A stretch of DNA of 38,757 nucleotides from Verrucomicrobiota bacterium (GTDB taxonomy: Bacteria; Verrucomicrobiota; Lentisphaeria; Victivallales; UBA1829): assembly GCA_022703965.1 (NCBI GenBank), contig JAKJHH010000012.1:1-38757 (forward strand), in the 5' to 3' direction. Position numbers and translations under genes: made by a program. Of this stretch, positions 12,951 through 38,757 are shown one piece after another. The notes beneath the pieces are model-generated. The model had not been told where the DNA came from. It saw only the letters and a program-made list of their open reading frames with translations, and made no database searches. Every line of letters starts with the position of its first letter. Within the stretch, counting starts at the first letter, position 1.

Positions 12951-15900
12951 TTACCAGCGATAATATCTATATGGATCATCATCGGCGACTGGCTTCTGCA
13001 CATAGTAACTGTTGTCCCATGGAGTGTCCACTATGCTGAGAGAAGGAACGCCCTTTATGCCGCCGTTGAGATACGTATCGTTTACAAGCACGACGAGCGT
13101 ATTTTCAGCTCCGCCCATGTCCATGATATCGCGGCCGACGACATACTTGCGCTGAACGGAATAATAATCCTGCGGATTCGTGGCTTTTGTGACTTCACCA
13201 AGGAATTCTCCGTTCATCCAGACCCACGATTCATCATCGACGGCTCCGAGATTGAGCAGCAGTCTGTCGTTGTTTTTGAGCTCTTCCGGAACTCTGAATT
13301 TGAGTCTGTACCAGAACAGGCCGTCATAACCGCTGAGGTCTTTGCGCTCGACATCAAAGAGTCCCGGCACTTTGATCGGACGCCATGACGCATCATTGAA
13401 GGACGGATCAAAGAATTTCTGATCGCGTCCCTTATTGCTCTTGTCGGCTTCTCCCTTCCAGGCTGAAGGAAGTTTTGCCGTTATCACAAGCTCCTGACGC
13501 GATATATTCTTAAGCAGGCTGGAGTCGAAGGATGCTCCCATATTCGCAAGAATTCTCGACACCATGAATGTGCTTCTGCGGTATGAACTTCTGAGGTACG
13601 GTTTCTTTGCGTAATCAAGCTGCCACGGGGCGACCTGACAGAAGACAACAGTGCCTCTTCCGAGCTTCACGACCTTTATGGACGGATCGTCGGAATCTTT
13701 GATTCCGTTGAAATCCATAAGAGTTCTGCGATGGAAATCAGCGTTGGAAAGTCCACGGAAAACCGCTTCGTTGTTCCGCTCAGCCATTGAGGAAGGAACT
13801 TTCATTTTTTCGATTTTTACGAGGCCGGGCAGAATGCTGTCGGCTGAGTTTTGGTCAAGCGCCAGACAAAGCACATTCATTCCGTCCTTGACAGTATCGC
13901 TGATATCGCCCAGATTCAGGTTCGAGCCTGAAACTACAAGAACTGAACTGCTGTCCTGCTTGCCTCCAGCCACGGGCAGGAAGTCGAGAGAAAGATCCTT
14001 GAGCAGCTTTTCTCCGTTGCCGTCACCGTAGTAAAATACCTTGCGCTCTGGAGCTGCCGCAGCTTTGTTAAGATAATTTATCAGCTTGTAGATGAGAACT
14101 TTAGCCACTGGATCGACTTCCGTTCTGCCGGAGAGATCAAGCTGACAGAAAACGACTTTTCCTCTTCCCTCGCTGTATTCAATCAGCGGGCTGTACTGAA
14201 GATCGAAACCGCAGTCGAGAAGGGAAAGAAAATTGCCTTTTTCGGGCTTTTCGATGAGAACCGAGCATATATTTCCGTTGTTTCCGTTTCTCCAGACTCG
14301 TGTATTTTCGAAGCCCAGCCAATTCCATCTAGGATCGTGCTGCTCGTAAGGATCTACTACAAGCGAAGGACTTGTGAGAGTCGAGGCTCCGCGCCAGTCT
14401 CTGAGATTTTCCTGACTGAGTCCGGCAAAAACAGGATGCTTTGCGTCTCTTATAAAGACATTGCGTATTCCCTGAATGTTCATCCTGAAGCCGAATCTGC
14501 CCGCCAGCGTCTCAGGACTCTGCTCCATAATCAGAACTCTGAGTCCGTTAGGCACGGAACTGAAGTCAATCTGCATGTTTTTATCCGAGAATGCCTCGCG
14601 TCCTACTATAAGAATGCCGCTTTCCGGAATCTTTGCAATGCTGTCGAGCTTTGTATATTCAATATTTGCAGCGTCCAGTAGCGGAATTGTCAGACCTTTC
14701 GGGTCAAAAACAGAAATCTGCTCGGGCTTCGGGAAATCGTAGGAACTGAGTCCCATCGAGGCAAAGAAGCTCTTGCCCGAGGGCGTTTTTACCGGATCAA
14801 GCGTAAATTCGTCCTTGAAAACAGTTCCGTCCGGGAACTTCACCTCAGCTGAGAGAACCGAGCTCTTGGACGGCATTTCAAATTCGATTTTGACCGAGGA
14901 TGATTCCCCTGCCCTGATACTCAATTTTCCGGATTTTGTGCTTCCGTCGATGCTGTATTTATAGCTGAATTCGCCTTCGCTGCGCGAATCGTTAAGAACA
15001 AGCAGCTGTTTCGATACCTTTTCGCCGGGCTCGAAATTGTGAGCTTTATCGGTGAATTCCTTGCCGCCGCCGATGAAGGCGATGAAAGGCTTGTTCCACT
15101 TCATGAATTCGCGTCCTATGCTTGTGAAATCGTAAAGAGGCTTTTCCGAAAGATCATAAATGCTCTGATTGGACACCGGAATGAAGTCTGGAACTATGCC
15201 AGGCTTTTTCAGATTCCTGTATCTGTCCGCATAAGCGCTTATTTTCGCAGGTGTGGAATTCCTGAGCCAGAAACCTTCCTGATCCCAGGGCAGCATGGCT
15301 GAAACTCCCCAGGCTCTGTGCGAACGCCAGTTATCCTGAGAGAAGTATTCTTTCACTTCGCGATAATTGGTCTCAAGTTGCGATATATAGCGTGTGAATC
15401 TTGAGAAGAAGAAGGGCTTACCTGTTGCCCAGGCCTTTTCTTCTTCGGCCATAAGAGCAAGCTTCATCTCATCCATCTTATAGGTTTTGTCTCCGAGAAT
15501 CGAGGCTGCGAATTCTGAGTCCCAGACCTGCTGAAACGCCTCATATCTCCAGATGAACTGAGGTCCGCGATAGCTGGACCATGAGGCAATATGCGGCAGT
15601 CCCCATTCCACAAAGAAGAAGGGTTTTACGCCGTTCTGAGACCAGTTGCGCATCCACTCGCTGCGTTCCTGACGGGGAGCCCAGTTAAGATAGCAATTCA
15701 GCGTATAGATCTGTCCGAGGTTTCCGCACTGATGATGGTACACTGCGCGTGTTCTGTCGATGTCTCTTGCGATGTCCGCGGCAAGTTCAGCTTGAACTCT
15801 CTTGAAGACAAAAGAACCTTCTGAAGGGTTTTTCGTCGTTTCCCCGGCAGCCACGACAGGATCATAGACTCCATCCATCTTCAGCGGATTCTGGTCTCCA

Positions 15901-17801
15901 TGATATCCTGTGGCGTTGTGAGTCATCGCATACATTATAATTGCCGGATGATTCTGAACCCGACGTATCAGCCATTTTGACATGGCGCGGTAATTGTCAA
16001 TGTTTTCCTTTGTTTTCAACCAGTTGAAATCTTTTTCATGCGGAAGCGAAAAAGAACAGAGCATTCCTGTTTTGTCGGCGGCTTCAAAGAGAGCGTCCAT
16101 ATAACCGACCTGCCCCGGTTCAAAACCGTAGTTGCCGGTAATAAAGAAGTTGAAACCGTTATCCTTCAACTTCTTGCATGAATTGAGAGAACCTTCCAGC
16201 GAAGCCCTTTCAGCCTGCATACAAAGATTATCGAGGAGCAGAGCTCTCAGATGTATCTTCTTGCCGTTGAGGAAGAAATCTTTGCCGACTATCTGGAATT
16301 CCCTGAAGCCGAATGTAATCGGCAGGGTTTCATCCAGAATTCTGCCGTTGCTGTCTTCCAGCGATATGACGGCTCTATAGATATTTGACGGAGTATCGGT
16401 ATCCCATTTTTTCGCTTCCGGCCAGAAATCTCCGAAGCTCATTTTGCTATTTTTTAATTCAGAAGCTTTGAAGAATGAAGATCTTATAGCTTTGACGGCT
16501 GTCTCTCCGTCATAAATGACGGCATTCAGACGGAAGCTTTGTCCGGAAGGCAGATCCGTTATCGTCGTTTCAAAGTCTACCCGTCCTTTTCCGACGGATG
16601 TAACTGCAAGAACATCATCAACTTTCGTTTCTGACGGCTCCGCGACGAGATAGACGTCGCCTGTCAGTCCCTTCATCTTCAGCTCCGCTTTTTTCGTTAT
16701 TATGCGATCGGGTGCCATGAAGACTTTGCTTTCGGCCTCAAGAGGACGTGCTGTAAGAAGTACGGCGACAGTCTGTTTCTTGCCTGGAAGGACATTTTTT
16801 GTGATATCCAGCTTGCCGCCCGGGAACCAGAGTTCTCCGGCATCCGCTCCGTCAATGAAAACTTTTGCATGGGTCTGTATCATGCCGAAATCGATAAATA
16901 TCTTCTTGTCCTTCCAGTCGGCAGGGACATCGATATCGCGTTTATACCAAGCCTGTTCGTAAGTTTTTCCGCTGATTCTGTCGATGGTTTCGGGAGCATA
17001 AACTATTTCCTGAGCAAACGAAGCGCTGTTTTTCTGGAATTCCGGCCATGTGCCCGGGACTTTGAAATATCCCCAGCCGCTGTTCGGCGCAGGAATTGTT
17101 GTAGAGGTTTCAAGTTGAGGTATGAACTTCCATAAGCCGTTGAGTGATATTGAGTCGCGTGTTCTGTTCTTCTGTCTCCATGTATTTTTTAGGCTCCAGT
17201 GCTCATTAAAAGAGACAAGTTCTTCAGGGGCAGGGACATCACCCTTGTAGAATATGGCTGTAACTGTCAGTTTGAGATCATCGAACTCAACCGTTCCCGC
17301 TGTGCCGAAGTTTGCCGGAGAAAAGGAAAGAGAAACGGCTCCCGGCGGAATAATATATTCATGATCAATATTGACCCATTGTCCGTTGCTTGAGCCAGTC
17401 ACTCCGAAAACCCAGGGCCAGGGATCGACATGCTTGCCGTCTTTGTCCTTAAATTCCATTGCGATGCGTGCGGTTTCCCAAGTTTCCTTGCCCTGTACTA
17501 CCTTATCATAACGGGCTTTGCCTGTGAGTTTGAATGCTCTCCAGTCAGGATCGAGCTTGATTGATTTGCCGTTGTTTAGTTTTCCACCGTCGATTTTGAG
17601 GTAAACATTTCCGTTTTCGGCAGGATAGCTGATGCCTTTGCCCGGCGCGTTCCAGCCGTCCGGAACAGAGTTTTTGTCAGCGTCTTTCTGGAAGTCTCCG
17701 TTATCGAGCATTGAATCGCCGACAGCCGCGCCGAAAAGTGAAATGCTTCCCATAAGCAGCAGCGAAGGAAGCAGAGTCTTCAGAAATTGTTTTCCGGACA
17801 T
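12951..17801 (-). CDS. Very large secreted GH2-like glycoside hydrolase, multidomain
   Basis: A 1616-residue exported protein. Order: signal peptide 1-28 (MSGKQFLKTLLPSLLLMGSI); a CBM4/9-like domain ~30-185 beginning LDNGDFQKDADKNSVPDGW; GH2 sugar-binding domain ~215-385; an Ig-like segment; a GH2 TIM barrel ~505-860; a glutamine-amidotransferase-like region ~1060-1250 and a second similar unit ~1265-1400 (each ending in VVFCQ); and a GH2 N-like domain ~1440-1600. The nucleophile candidate is E732 (FFFVEWG). At the usual acid/base place the text is MTHNAT (H628-A630) instead of the canonical NE. AAGGAG lies eight bases before ATG 17801; the ATG at 17819 contains that site. Substrate unknown; a galactosidase- or rhamnosidase-like role is only a guess. 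Confidence 0.82.
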   Translation of the reverse strand: MSGKQFLKTLLPSLLLMGSISLFGAAVGDSMLDNGDFQKDADKNSVPDGWNAPGKGISYPAENGNVYLKIDGGKLNNGKSIKLDPDWRAFKLTGKARYDKVVQGKETWETARIAMEFKDKDGKHVDPWPWVFGVTGSSNGQWVNIDHEYIIPPGAVSLSFSPANFGTAGTVEFDDLKLTVTAIFYKGDVPAPEELVSFNEHWSLKNTWRQKNRTRDSISLNGLWKFIPQLETSTTIPAPNSGWGYFKVPGTWPEFQKNSASFAQEIVYAPETIDRISGKTYEQAWYKRDIDVPADWKDKKIFIDFGMIQTHAKVFIDGADAGELWFPGGKLDITKNVLPGKKQTVAVLLTARPLEAESKVFMAPDRIITKKAELKMKGLTGDVYLVAEPSETKVDDVLAVTSVGKGRVDFETTITDLPSGQSFRLNAVIYDGETAVKAIRSSFFKASELKNSKMSFGDFWPEAKKWDTDTPSNIYRAVISLEDSNGRILDETLPITFGFREFQIVGKDFFLNGKKIHLRALLLDNLCMQAERASLEGSLNSCKKLKDNGFNFFITGNYGFEPGQVGYMDALFEAADKTGMLCSFSLPHEKDFNWLKTKENIDNYRAMSKWLIRRVQNHPAIIMYAMTHNATGYHGDQNPLKMDGVYDPVVAAGETTKNPSEGSFVFKRVQAELAADIARDIDRTRAVYHHQCGNLGQIYTLNCYLNWAPRQERSEWMRNWSQNGVKPFFFVEWGLPHIASWSSYRGPQFIWRYEAFQQVWDSEFAASILGDKTYKMDEMKLALMAEEEKAWATGKPFFFSRFTRYISQLETNYREVKEYFSQDNWRSHRAWGVSAMLPWDQEGFWLRNSTPAKISAYADRYRNLKKPGIVPDFIPVSNQSIYDLSEKPLYDFTSIGREFMKWNKPFIAFIGGGKEFTDKAHNFEPGEKVSKQLLVLNDSRSEGEFSYKYSIDGSTKSGKLSIRAGESSSVKIEFEMPSKSSVLSAEVKFPDGTVFKDEFTLDPVKTPSGKSFFASMGLSSYDFPKPEQISVFDPKGLTIPLLDAANIEYTKLDSIAKIPESGILIVGREAFSDKNMQIDFSSVPNGLRVLIMEQSPETLAGRFGFRMNIQGIRNVFIRDAKHPVFAGLSQENLRDWRGASTLTSPSLVVDPYEQHDPRWNWLGFENTRVWRNGNNGNICSVLIEKPEKGNFLSLLDCGFDLQYSPLIEYSEGRGKVVFCQLDLSGRTEVDPVAKVLIYKLINYLNKAAAAPERKVFYYGDGNGEKLLKDLSLDFLPVAGGKQDSSSVLVVSGSNLNLGDISDTVKDGMNVLCLALDQNSADSILPGLVKIEKMKVPSSMAERNNEAVFRGLSNADFHRRTLMDFNGIKDSDDPSIKVVKLGRGTVVFCQVAPWQLDYAKKPYLRSSYRRSTFMVSRILANMGASFDSSLLKNISRQELVITAKLPSAWKGEADKSNKGRDQKFFDPSFNDASWRPIKVPGLFDVERKDLSGYDGLFWYRLKFRVPEELKNNDRLLLNLGAVDDESWVWMNGEFLGEVTKATNPQDYYSVQRKYVVGRDIMDMGGAENTLVVLVNDTYLNGGIKGVPSLSIVDTPWDNSYYVQKPVADDDPYRYYRW

Positions 17802-17851
17802 TTTTATAACTCCTTGCATTAAAAAGGATTAAATTTTGATTAATCTCAAGA

Positions 17852-36875: not shown

Positions 36876-37032
36876 AAATCTAATACTCCTTTCCTCTGAG
36901 TCAAGAGTTTTTATAGAATCATAAAATAATATTTCCCTTGACTTTTTTAAACCACGGGATATCCTAGGACATCAGGCTGACGCGGCGGCATAGAGCTGTT
37001 TTGCGGATATTGCCGAGGATTTTGGATGCTTG
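36876..37032. other. Intergenic region upstream of the structured leader
   Basis: There is no gene. A possible plus-strand promoter, TTGACT (36938-36943) with a 17-base spacer and ATCCTA, is weak. GGATATCC at 36957-36964 is a short palindrome. Confidence 0.35.
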
Positions 37033-37115
37033 CTTAAGAAAAATGAGTGATGAAGAGTCACTCTCCGCGCACCGGACAAAAGACGTCCGGAGGCGATTTT
37101 ATTGTTTTTCTTAAG
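37033..37115 (+). ncRNA. Structured leader RNA with a three-way junction, possible riboswitch or attenuator
   Basis: An 11-base perfect closing stem, CTTAAGAAAAA (37033-37043) with TTTTTCTTAAG (37105-37115), encloses two hairpins: GAGTGA (37045-37050)/TCACTC (37058-37063) with a seven-base loop, and CGC...CCGGAC (37066-37077)/GTCCGG...GCG (37085-37095) with an internal loop and a seven-base loop. The second hairpin is GC-rich and runs into ATTTTATTGTTTTT, so it could act as a terminator whose U-tract is alternatively paired in the closing stem. It lies 23 bases before the methyltransferase start. It does not match purine, TPP, glycine or c-di-GMP cores that I could compare by eye. Class unknown; a MITE-like inverted repeat is the alternative. 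Confidence 0.5.
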
Positions 37116-37138
37116 AACTACAGCAAACAGGATTCATC

Positions 37139-37876
37139 ATGAATAATACATGGAAAAAATTCTACGATTTCAACGCACCACATTACGATAACGAAATTTT
37201 CACCTCCAACACAGATTTCGAGCTCGATTTTCTGATCAGAGAAATGCCCCTGCATCCGGGAATGAAAGTACTCGACTTAGGATGCGGCACAGGACGTCAC
37301 TCCATCGGCCTGGCTGCAAGAGGTATGAAAATGACCAGTCTGGACATCTCGTCCGGACAGCTTGCCGAGGCAAAGAAAAAAGCGGAAAAAGCCGGACTCG
37401 ATATCAATTTTATTCAGGCTGACGCTTCCGATTTTTCGCTGAATGAGAAATTTGATGCGGCAATCTGCATCTGCGAAGGCTCCTTCGGACTGCTTTCGGT
37501 AGATGACGATCCGTTGACTCACGAGAGAGCGATTCTGCGGAATCTGGCGGCAGTGCTGAAACCCGGCGCTCCGTTTCTCATGACCGTCCGCAATGCCCTT
37601 GAAATCATCCGTCACTACAACGATAAGGATATAGCCGAGGACAGATTTGATCCTTATACCCTGACTCGCACGGTGAAACTTGGAGAATGGTATCCGGGCT
37701 TTGATCCCGAGGTCAAAGTGAAGGAAAAAGCCTATACTCCGATGGAATTGCGTCTGATTCTGGAAAATGCCGGATTCGAGCTTGATCTGCTTTGCGGCGG
37801 AACTGCCGGCTCCTGGGATTTCCATACCCTTTCCATGGATGAAATCGAGCTGATGGCCAAATCCCATCTGCGCTGA
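37139..37876 (+). CDS. Class I SAM-dependent methyltransferase
   Basis: A 245-residue methyltransferase. Motif I is VLDLGCGTGRHSIGLAARG (~44-62), followed by SLDIS (acidic residue at the end of beta-2), then NFIQADASDF and DAAICICEGSFGLLS for the catalytic face. The fold is complete, length normal. AGGA lies six bases before ATG 37139. The substrate is unknown. The gene stands alone, between a structured leader and a strong terminator. Confidence 0.9.
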   Translation: MNNTWKKFYDFNAPHYDNEIFTSNTDFELDFLIREMPLHPGMKVLDLGCGTGRHSIGLAARGMKMTSLDISSGQLAEAKKKAEKAGLDINFIQADASDFSLNEKFDAAICICEGSFGLLSVDDDPLTHERAILRNLAAVLKPGAPFLMTVRNALEIIRHYNDKDIAEDRFDPYTLTRTVKLGEWYPGFDPEVKVKEKAYTPMELRLILENAGFELDLLCGGTAGSWDFHTLSMDEIELMAKSHLR

Positions 37877-37888
37877 TCTCCGATCCCC

Positions 37889-37924
37889 CCTGCCGCCGCC
37901 TTCTCGCGCGGCGGCAGGTTTTTC
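37889..37924 (+). terminator. Intrinsic terminator of the methyltransferase gene
   Basis: A ten-base GC-rich stem, CCTGCCGCCG (37889-37898) with CGGCGGCAGG (37909-37918), and a ten-base loop, followed by TTTTTCT. It starts 13 bases after the stop. Confidence 0.93.
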
Positions 37925-38019: not shown

Positions 38020-38556
38020 TTGCTGTCTTTGCTTAAGGTATTGCCATGTAAAATCTTAAACATAACAGCTCTTCTTGTGCTGCCTGTGAGCTTCTTGCTT
38101 GGTCAGGGATCTCCATATGGAGAGTCTATATGTGTGTATGAAACAGATCGCTGGAAGCTTATCAATGTTTTTGACTGGACGGCAATGAAAACATTACGCA
38201 TGGATTTGATACTCGATCATTTTTCATCAGAGACAAATACATATGGTTCTCTTACGTGTATTGAGAAAAAGACAGGTGTCGCCAAATTTGTGATCCCATC
38301 AGGTCCCTTTACTGATTTATGGATATCGCCAGATTCAAAATATATTGTTGCTCTTTCCGATGAGGCATATATCAATCCTGTACAAATATTGATTATAGAT
38401 AATGACGATGGGAAAAGATTATACAAGAAAACTTTTGCAAACGCGTATATAAAGCTTTCATCTACATTGTATTATGAGTTTATACAGAGGTTTCAGGATC
38501 TGAAAATACCTGCAATGTATATATCACGTCAAGATAATTATATTGTCCCCCGATAA
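38020..38556 (+). pseudogene. Exported protein gene truncated by an IS insertion
   Basis: A 178-residue frame with a hydrophobic N-terminus (LNITALLVLPVSFLLGQGSP) and later GPFTDLWISPDSKYIVALSD, a WD40/beta-propeller-like strand pattern. No ATG is available near the 5' end; the frame opens with a TTG at 38020 that has no Shine-Dalgarno. An ATG at 37988 behind AGGGGG is in another frame, which suggests either a frameshift or an unusual start. The stop (38554-38556) lies inside the left end of the IS3-like element, so the natural C-terminus is probably lost. A+T-rich. Function unknown. Confidence 0.5.
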
Positions 38557-38757
38557 GAAGGCGTGCTAAATTTAGGAGAAAATCGGAGGATGAAAGATGT
38601 CAAACAGGACTTGGTCAGCGAAAGAAAAATTGTCGATCGTTTTAGAAGGTTTAAGGGGTACGGCGAATATATCGGAGCTCTGCAATCGTCATGGGATATC
38701 GCAAACCCAATATTACCAGTGGAGAGATCGCCTGTTGTCGGACGGCGAGAAGCTTTT
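38544..38757 (+). mobile_element. IS3-like insertion sequence, left end (continues past window)
   Basis: The element seems to begin near TGTCCCCCGATAAGAAGG at 38544, which interrupts the preceding frame and is followed by orfA. The right end is outside the window, so the terminal inverted repeat cannot be confirmed. Confidence 0.6.
38597..38757 (+). CDS. IS3-family transposase OrfA, N-terminal part
   Basis: The reading frame starts at ATG 38597, with GGAGG at 38585-38589 seven bases upstream, and runs to the window edge (53 codons). The text MSNRTWSAKEKLSIVLEGLR, ISELCNRHGIS and QTQYYQWRDRLL is the helix-turn-helix of Transposase_8 (OrfA), which in IS3 elements is fused to OrfB by frameshifting. 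Partial; OrfB lies outside. Confidence 0.85.
   Translation, partial: MSNRTWSAKEKLSIVLEGLRGTANISELCNRHGISQTQYYQWRDRLLSDGEKL

Follow-up and report, generated by a model that had tools for sequence, protein, structure and literature searches.

The question raised by this locus is what the structured RNA immediately upstream of a gene for a class I SAM-dependent methyltransferase responds to, and by what route it acts. The gene lies in a stretch of DNA from a Verrucomicrobiota bacterium of the order Victivallales (contig JAKJHH010000012.1; 38,757 nucleotides, hereafter the window). An earlier note on this DNA described an 83-base three-way junction before the gene and proposed a link to SAM, SAH or the methylated product. 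As argued below, the leader is more probably a ribosome-sensing translational attenuator of the methyltransferase gene, found in a few uncultured Lentisphaerota, in which translation of a three-codon upstream open reading frame (uORF) would control access to the ribosome-binding site (RBS) of the gene. The core of the element and the gene itself are as follows.

37033 to 37043, + strand: P1, 5' strand of the closing stem; holds the uORF stop codon; window sequence CUUAAGAAAAA
37045 to 37063, + strand: P3 hairpin, present in the fold
37072 to 37090, + strand: P4, GC hairpin, terminator-like in 2 of the 4 homologous leaders
37096 to 37104, + strand: conserved junction strand AUUUUAUUG between P4 and P1; UUUUAUUG is invariant in all four leaders
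37105 to 37115, + strand: P1, 3' strand, UUUUUCUUAAG
37139 to 37876, + strand: regulated gene; encodes a class I SAM-dependent methyltransferase of 245 aa (Pfam Methyltransf_25, 3e-19)

Most of the geometry given in the earlier note holds. P1 is a perfect 11-bp stem (37033-37043/37105-37115), the element that it closes spans 83 bases, and the distance to the methyltransferase ATG at 37139 is the claimed 23 bases. Both inner hairpins exist; the 7-base loop ascribed to each is found in P4 (6 bp, 7-nt loop), whereas P3 has 7 bp and a 5-nt loop in the fold, and 6 bp with a 7-nt loop only by the count of the note. The U-rich tract lies 3' of P4 and ends in five U that belong to P1, as described. 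The segment 37020-37145 folds at -40.3 kcal/mol compared to a mean of -24.7 for shuffled sequences (z -4.39, none of 200 shuffles equal). The junction is therefore real but is only the core of a larger leader that starts at about 36973 and extends to the start codon. This full leader of ~165 nt, from the predicted promoter to the methyltransferase AUG, has three further parts, namely a hairpin domain at its 5' end, a mini-ORF and the outer helix P5.

The same leader is located immediately upstream of all three close orthologues found for the methyltransferase, which come from genomes named Lentisphaerae/Victivallales and belonging to genera other than that of the window: GWF2_44_16 (L032, 78% amino acid identity), SZUA-371 (L033, 73%) and STD2_269 (L034, 71%). 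The neighbouring genes, identified by reading their translations by eye, differ at each locus, with a folate synthase-like protein, an FRG domain, a LarB-like protein and a solute-binding protein encoded upstream, and thus the leader belongs to the methyltransferase gene. When a covariance model is built on the three homologous leaders alone, it recovers the window with 94 bits (E 5e-23). Pairwise identity is 64-75% in the leader and drops to 24-50% in its 5' flank; fourfold-degenerate codon positions give 32-52%. In the six-helix structure, 89.9% of the cells are paired, as against 32-46% when the partners are slid by 1-3 columns; two alignment faults lower the former score, namely a re-registered P1 in the window and a P3 loop one base shorter in L032. 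The P1 of the homologues is CGUAAAGA/UCUUUAC(G), and the re-registration replaces their CGUAAAGA/UCUUUACG by CUUAAGAAAAA/UUUUUCUUAAG in the window. Covariation among homologues, the absence of which the earlier note had named as grounds for rejection, is present: five pairs are changed on both sides, including GC to CG and AU to CG in P3, and none of 500 shuffles reaches that number, the counts being small given only four sequences.

These observations also bear on the possibility that the element is a mobile DNA repeat, i.e., a MITE or an integron-like recombination site lying before the gene by chance. It is a long-stem inverted repeat, and an IS3-like fragment is located ~1.5 kb downstream. 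However, besides the covariation of its helices, the element occurs once in its genome (a metagenome assembly of 4.2 Mb, 78% complete, in which the window is a whole contig), and strong matches of the covariance model are confined to these four loci, always before this gene, among 137 genomes of the order, 198 of the class and 388 of the phylum. Copy number and context refute the MITE reading, and a mobile repeat of any kind is extremely improbable. The earlier note's description of a structured cis-regulatory leader of the methyltransferase gene is borne out by the same single-copy, covarying element.

The distribution is narrow. The leader is absent upstream of the more distant methyltransferase homologues with 33-48% identity (L035, L057, L058, L059), and a search of phages, plasmids and viral contigs yielded no relative. 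A 28.8-bit match in one genome (G109) is antisense within a coding ORF and was taken as chance; four other weak matches (G114, G133, G252, G271; 23-25 bits) were set aside, with little of the structure kept in the two that were aligned (G114, G133). The leader-methyltransferase unit is sparse: 4 of the 137 genomes of the order have it (G041, G055, G043, G000), and these represent three families. This distribution, together with protein identities of 71-78% and the lack of common neighbours, suggests horizontal transfer as one cassette or, alternatively, repeated loss.

The portion of the leader upstream of the junction has two parts, a promoter and a folded 5' domain.

36938 to 36965, + strand: sigma-70-like promoter TTGACT-16-TATCCT, predicted transcription start at about 36971-36975
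36975 to 37014, + strand: 5' domain, consisting of P0 (GGC/GCC, 36975-36977 with 37012-37014) and hairpin P2 (36984-37000), kept in all four leaders

Each of the four leaders contains a single promoter-like match in the scanned region, and this sole match ends 10-15 nt 5' of the conserved GGCUGA, which would place the start of transcription at the 5' domain. Since chance would give ~0.5-1.2 matches per region, such that any one match alone is within chance, the support for the promoter comes from the shared position. Across the four leaders, 91.7% of the cells of P0 and 92.9% of those of P2 are paired.

Between the 5' domain and the closing stem lies the most conserved stretch of the leader, a Shine-Dalgarno sequence followed by a three-codon ORF, AUG-NUU-GCN-UAA, present in all four leaders and overlooked in the earlier note.

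37015 to 37018, + strand: uORF Shine-Dalgarno GAGG, invariant in the four leaders, 7 nt before the AUG (6 nt in L032 and L034)
37026 to 37037, + strand: three-codon uORF AUG CUU GCU UAA (Met-Leu-Ala-stop); AUG CUU/AUU GCG UAA in the homologues

This stretch, GAGGAUYUU(G)GAUG-NUU-GCN-UAA, runs just before and into the closing stem and varies only by one spacer indel, a Y in the spacer, Leu or Ile at codon 2 and synonymous GCG or GCU at codon 3. Pairwise identity in this segment is 79-96%, well above the values given above for the 5' flank and for the fourfold-degenerate sites of the gene. The stop codon stays in place despite the changed P1 pairs that surround it in the window. The pattern is restricted to the same four loci among the 137 genomes of the order. 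Among single leaders that were shuffled, 10-17% also contain a Shine-Dalgarno with a short ORF; hence the case for the mini-ORF rests on its conservation and position. A conserved short uORF with its own GAGG 6-7 nt upstream in every leader is what an attenuator of this kind calls for, and we infer that the mini-ORF is translated. Also discarded was a longer overlapping ORF that begins within P3 in the window (ATG 37043), as it is not kept in L033 and L034.

The second element overlooked in the earlier note is the outer helix, in which the uORF Shine-Dalgarno and spacer pair with the bases just 5' of the methyltransferase AUG.

37015 to 37025, + strand: P5, 5' strand, uORF Shine-Dalgarno and spacer; the pairing extends to 37027 in some homologues
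37126 to 37138, + strand: P5, 3' strand, methyltransferase ribosome-binding region, positions -13 to -1 (from alignment and folds)

P5 has one fixed register in the four leaders, with 41 of the 44 cells paired (10, 11, 9 and 11 out of 11). This sum was not reached in any of 20,000 independent shuffles, nor in any of 20,000 common column permutations, which preserve relatedness (mean 18.4). At one position of the helix, two leaders have C-G, a third U-A and the fourth U-G. The helix is present in the unconstrained MFE structure of all four leaders, with a mean pairing of 0.83-0.92 and a duplex energy of -8 to -13 kcal/mol. On the 3' side, the unpaired spacer that separates P1 from P5 is far less conserved (38-58%), its 5' counterpart being the segment that holds the mini-ORF. 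The fixed register superseded an initial idea of linker pairing with AGGA motifs at varying distances. As predicted from alignment and folding, then, P5 closes over the junction and buries the methyltransferase RBS, and it would thereby repress translation of the gene.

When a ribosome footprint on the uORF is masked in folding, P1 is abolished and the cost of opening the methyltransferase RBS falls in all four leaders (10.3 to 4.0, 7.0 to 4.7, 13.6 to 9.2 and 8.8 to 6.3-7.0 kcal/mol), although in the masked folds the RBS is still partly paired, by other partners. In these computed folds, the structure that masks the RBS would thus be opened by a ribosome on the uORF, which makes ribosome-mediated translational attenuation the simplest model.

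Could the leader instead be an undescribed metabolite riboswitch, with the 5' domain and the conserved linker forming an aptamer for a ligand such as SAM, SAH or the methylated product, which would shift P5 and expose or hide the RBS? The conserved 5' domain (GGCUGA, P2, AUA, GCC) has invariant unpaired bases, an RBS-masking P5 would serve as a standard translational expression platform, and the regulated gene is SAM-dependent, so that the leader resembles the SAM and SAH riboswitches of Rfam in being structured and located 5' of a SAM-using gene. The earlier note had recognised no known class, and the Rfam covariance search agrees, with no match at the gathering threshold in the window and none at E <=10 in 36900-37200; the only overlapping match in the homologous leaders, an archaeal snoRNA at 15.3 bits (gathering score 45), is attributable to chance. 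Moreover, the most conserved linker, where the core of the element lies, is a correctly spaced Shine-Dalgarno with a mini-ORF, and the element precedes one gene only rather than being spread over a SAM regulon. Together with the masking of the RBS by the outer helix, these features do not favour the proposed SAM/SAH link, and we consider a riboswitch rather unlikely. Nevertheless, conservation of the mini-ORF stretch could serve P5 and P1, or an aptamer, instead of translation, which is a point against the attenuator.

A further possibility is a transcription attenuator, in which P4 and the U-tract act as an intrinsic terminator whose activity depends on uORF translation or on a ligand, with P5 and P1 being secondary. 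P4 and the U-tract are terminator-like in L032 and L034 according to the terminator scan, P4 forms in all four transcripts truncated at the U-tract, and both layers are employed by the vmlR and cplR leaders (PMC9226507, PMC10201436). The scan is, however, negative on this strand in the window and in L033, and, in the window and L034, the U run lies 5-6 bases away from the core stem. The earlier note envisaged mutually exclusive terminator and closed forms, but the closing stem and P4 form together as parts of a single three-way junction, and the two forms are therefore not exclusive; because, in addition, the 3' strand of P1 emerges after the U-tract, P1 cannot act as an antiterminator against P4. 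Control primarily by termination is accordingly improbable, whereas a terminator layer on top of translational control is possible.

Under the translational attenuator model that we prefer, transcription would begin at the 5' domain. In the resting mRNA, the uORF Shine-Dalgarno and spacer would pair, as P5, with the 13 bases that directly precede the methyltransferase AUG, and the P1/P3/P4 junction would serve as a compact clamp joining the two distant P5 strands, such that the methyltransferase would be poorly translated. A point against the model is that the Shine-Dalgarno of the uORF is itself inside P5, so that initiation on the uORF faces competition. A ribosome on the uORF would have to melt P5 and, given that the stop codon is inside P1, P1 as well. 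With fast uORF translation, the leader would be open only briefly; a ribosome dwelling at AUG-NUU-GCN-UAA, owing to an antibiotic or to stress at initiation, early elongation or termination, would keep P5 open and allow the methyltransferase to be made. A simpler scheme would be static or temperature-sensitive masking of the RBS (an RNA thermometer), or termination-reinitiation coupling, with the uORF merely setting the basal level of the methyltransferase. P5 is a helix of moderate stability directly over the RBS, and L033 has no good Shine-Dalgarno beside the methyltransferase AUG. Yet a thermometer does not need conserved start and stop codons, a three-way junction or a 5' domain, and reinitiation across ~100 nt would be unusual; we regard such a scheme as having a low probability.

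Three-codon uORF sensors have been reported for resistance genes of Bacillota (PMC9226507, PMC10201436). In Bacillus subtilis, lincomycin stalls ribosomes on the three-codon uORF (MIN) of vmlR and induces the gene (PMC9226507). The vmlR leader shares with the one described here a three-codon, UAA-ending uORF with its own Shine-Dalgarno, a structured leader and a separate structure that masks the Shine-Dalgarno of the gene, but vmlR encodes an ABCF ribosome-protection factor and is controlled mainly at transcription termination, by means of antiterminator hairpins (PMC9226507). Here, by contrast, the regulated gene codes for a SAM methyltransferase, its RBS is paired across the three-way junction with the very Shine-Dalgarno of the uORF, and there is no convincing terminator switch. 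In Clostridioides difficile, a three-codon uORF, MR[I/M], controls cplR (PMC10201436); a hairpin over the uORF and a masked Shine-Dalgarno of the gene in the repressed state are further common features, whereas the gene is again an ABCF gene, the masking is by an intrinsic terminator (PMC10201436), and no sequence or fold in common with the present leader was found. Membership in the ARE-ABCF leader family (vmlR, cplR, lsaA) is not supported: the gene that follows encodes a class I SAM methyltransferase, no shared sequence was found and, as regards the terminator/antiterminator feature, P4 is terminator-like in two of the four leaders and no exclusive antiterminator was detected. In the toiL-topAI system of Escherichia coli, pairing of the uORF region with the RBS represses downstream translation, and stalled ribosomes relieve the repression (PMC12121999). 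The likeness to our leader is this very pairing; toiL-topAI differs in its uORF, in lacking a three-way junction, in being a toxin-antitoxin operon and in a second, Rho-dependent layer (PMC12121999). In a literature search of incomplete coverage, we found no precedent for such a leader in this phylum or on this type of gene.

The methyltransferase gene is followed, at 37884-37920, by a GC-rich inverted repeat (CTGCCGCCGCC...GGCGGCAGG) and then by T-rich DNA. This repeat is likely a terminator, in which case the methyltransferase would be a single-gene transcript. The protein is a generic class I methyltransferase with a confident AlphaFold model (pLDDT 83), and its best solved match in both sequence and fold is the bacillithiol methyltransferase NmbA (9ri2), followed by peptide N-methyltransferases (CypM), the lincosamide-pathway enzyme CcbJ and other small-molecule enzymes. 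The matches to NmbA, CypM and CcbJ suggest a small substrate.

Beyond this gene, 38020-38556 is a 178-aa ORF without a Pfam match, located between the methyltransferase and the IS fragment; the latter (38594-38757) is the start of an ORF which, as read by eye, resembles an IS3-family transposase helper and is cut by the contig end. Elsewhere in the window, a 1622-aa ORF (12951-17819) has only a weak match to a glycosyl hydrolase family 2 sugar-binding domain.

If vmlR, cplR and toiL are a guide, the methyltransferase might be a stress- or drug-response gene, which is a weak inference; the enzyme belongs to no known resistance family, and this counts against the attenuator. A more specific and speculative version, which we put forward tentatively, is that the Met-Leu/Ile-Ala uORF belongs to an attenuator specific to Lentisphaerota, which responds to translation stress or to a natural product that targets the ribosome. 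The methyltransferase that it induces would then be a resistance enzyme not recognised as such before, with the drug, the ribosome or a translation factor as its target.

The leader is outside Rfam and short enough for testing in a laboratory host. If the attenuator model is correct, it would extend three-codon uORF control to an uncultured phylum and to a SAM methyltransferase, the connection being a helix formed directly between the uORF Shine-Dalgarno and the RBS of the gene. It would also provide a handle on an orphan methyltransferase, since whatever stalls the uORF would tell what the enzyme responds to.
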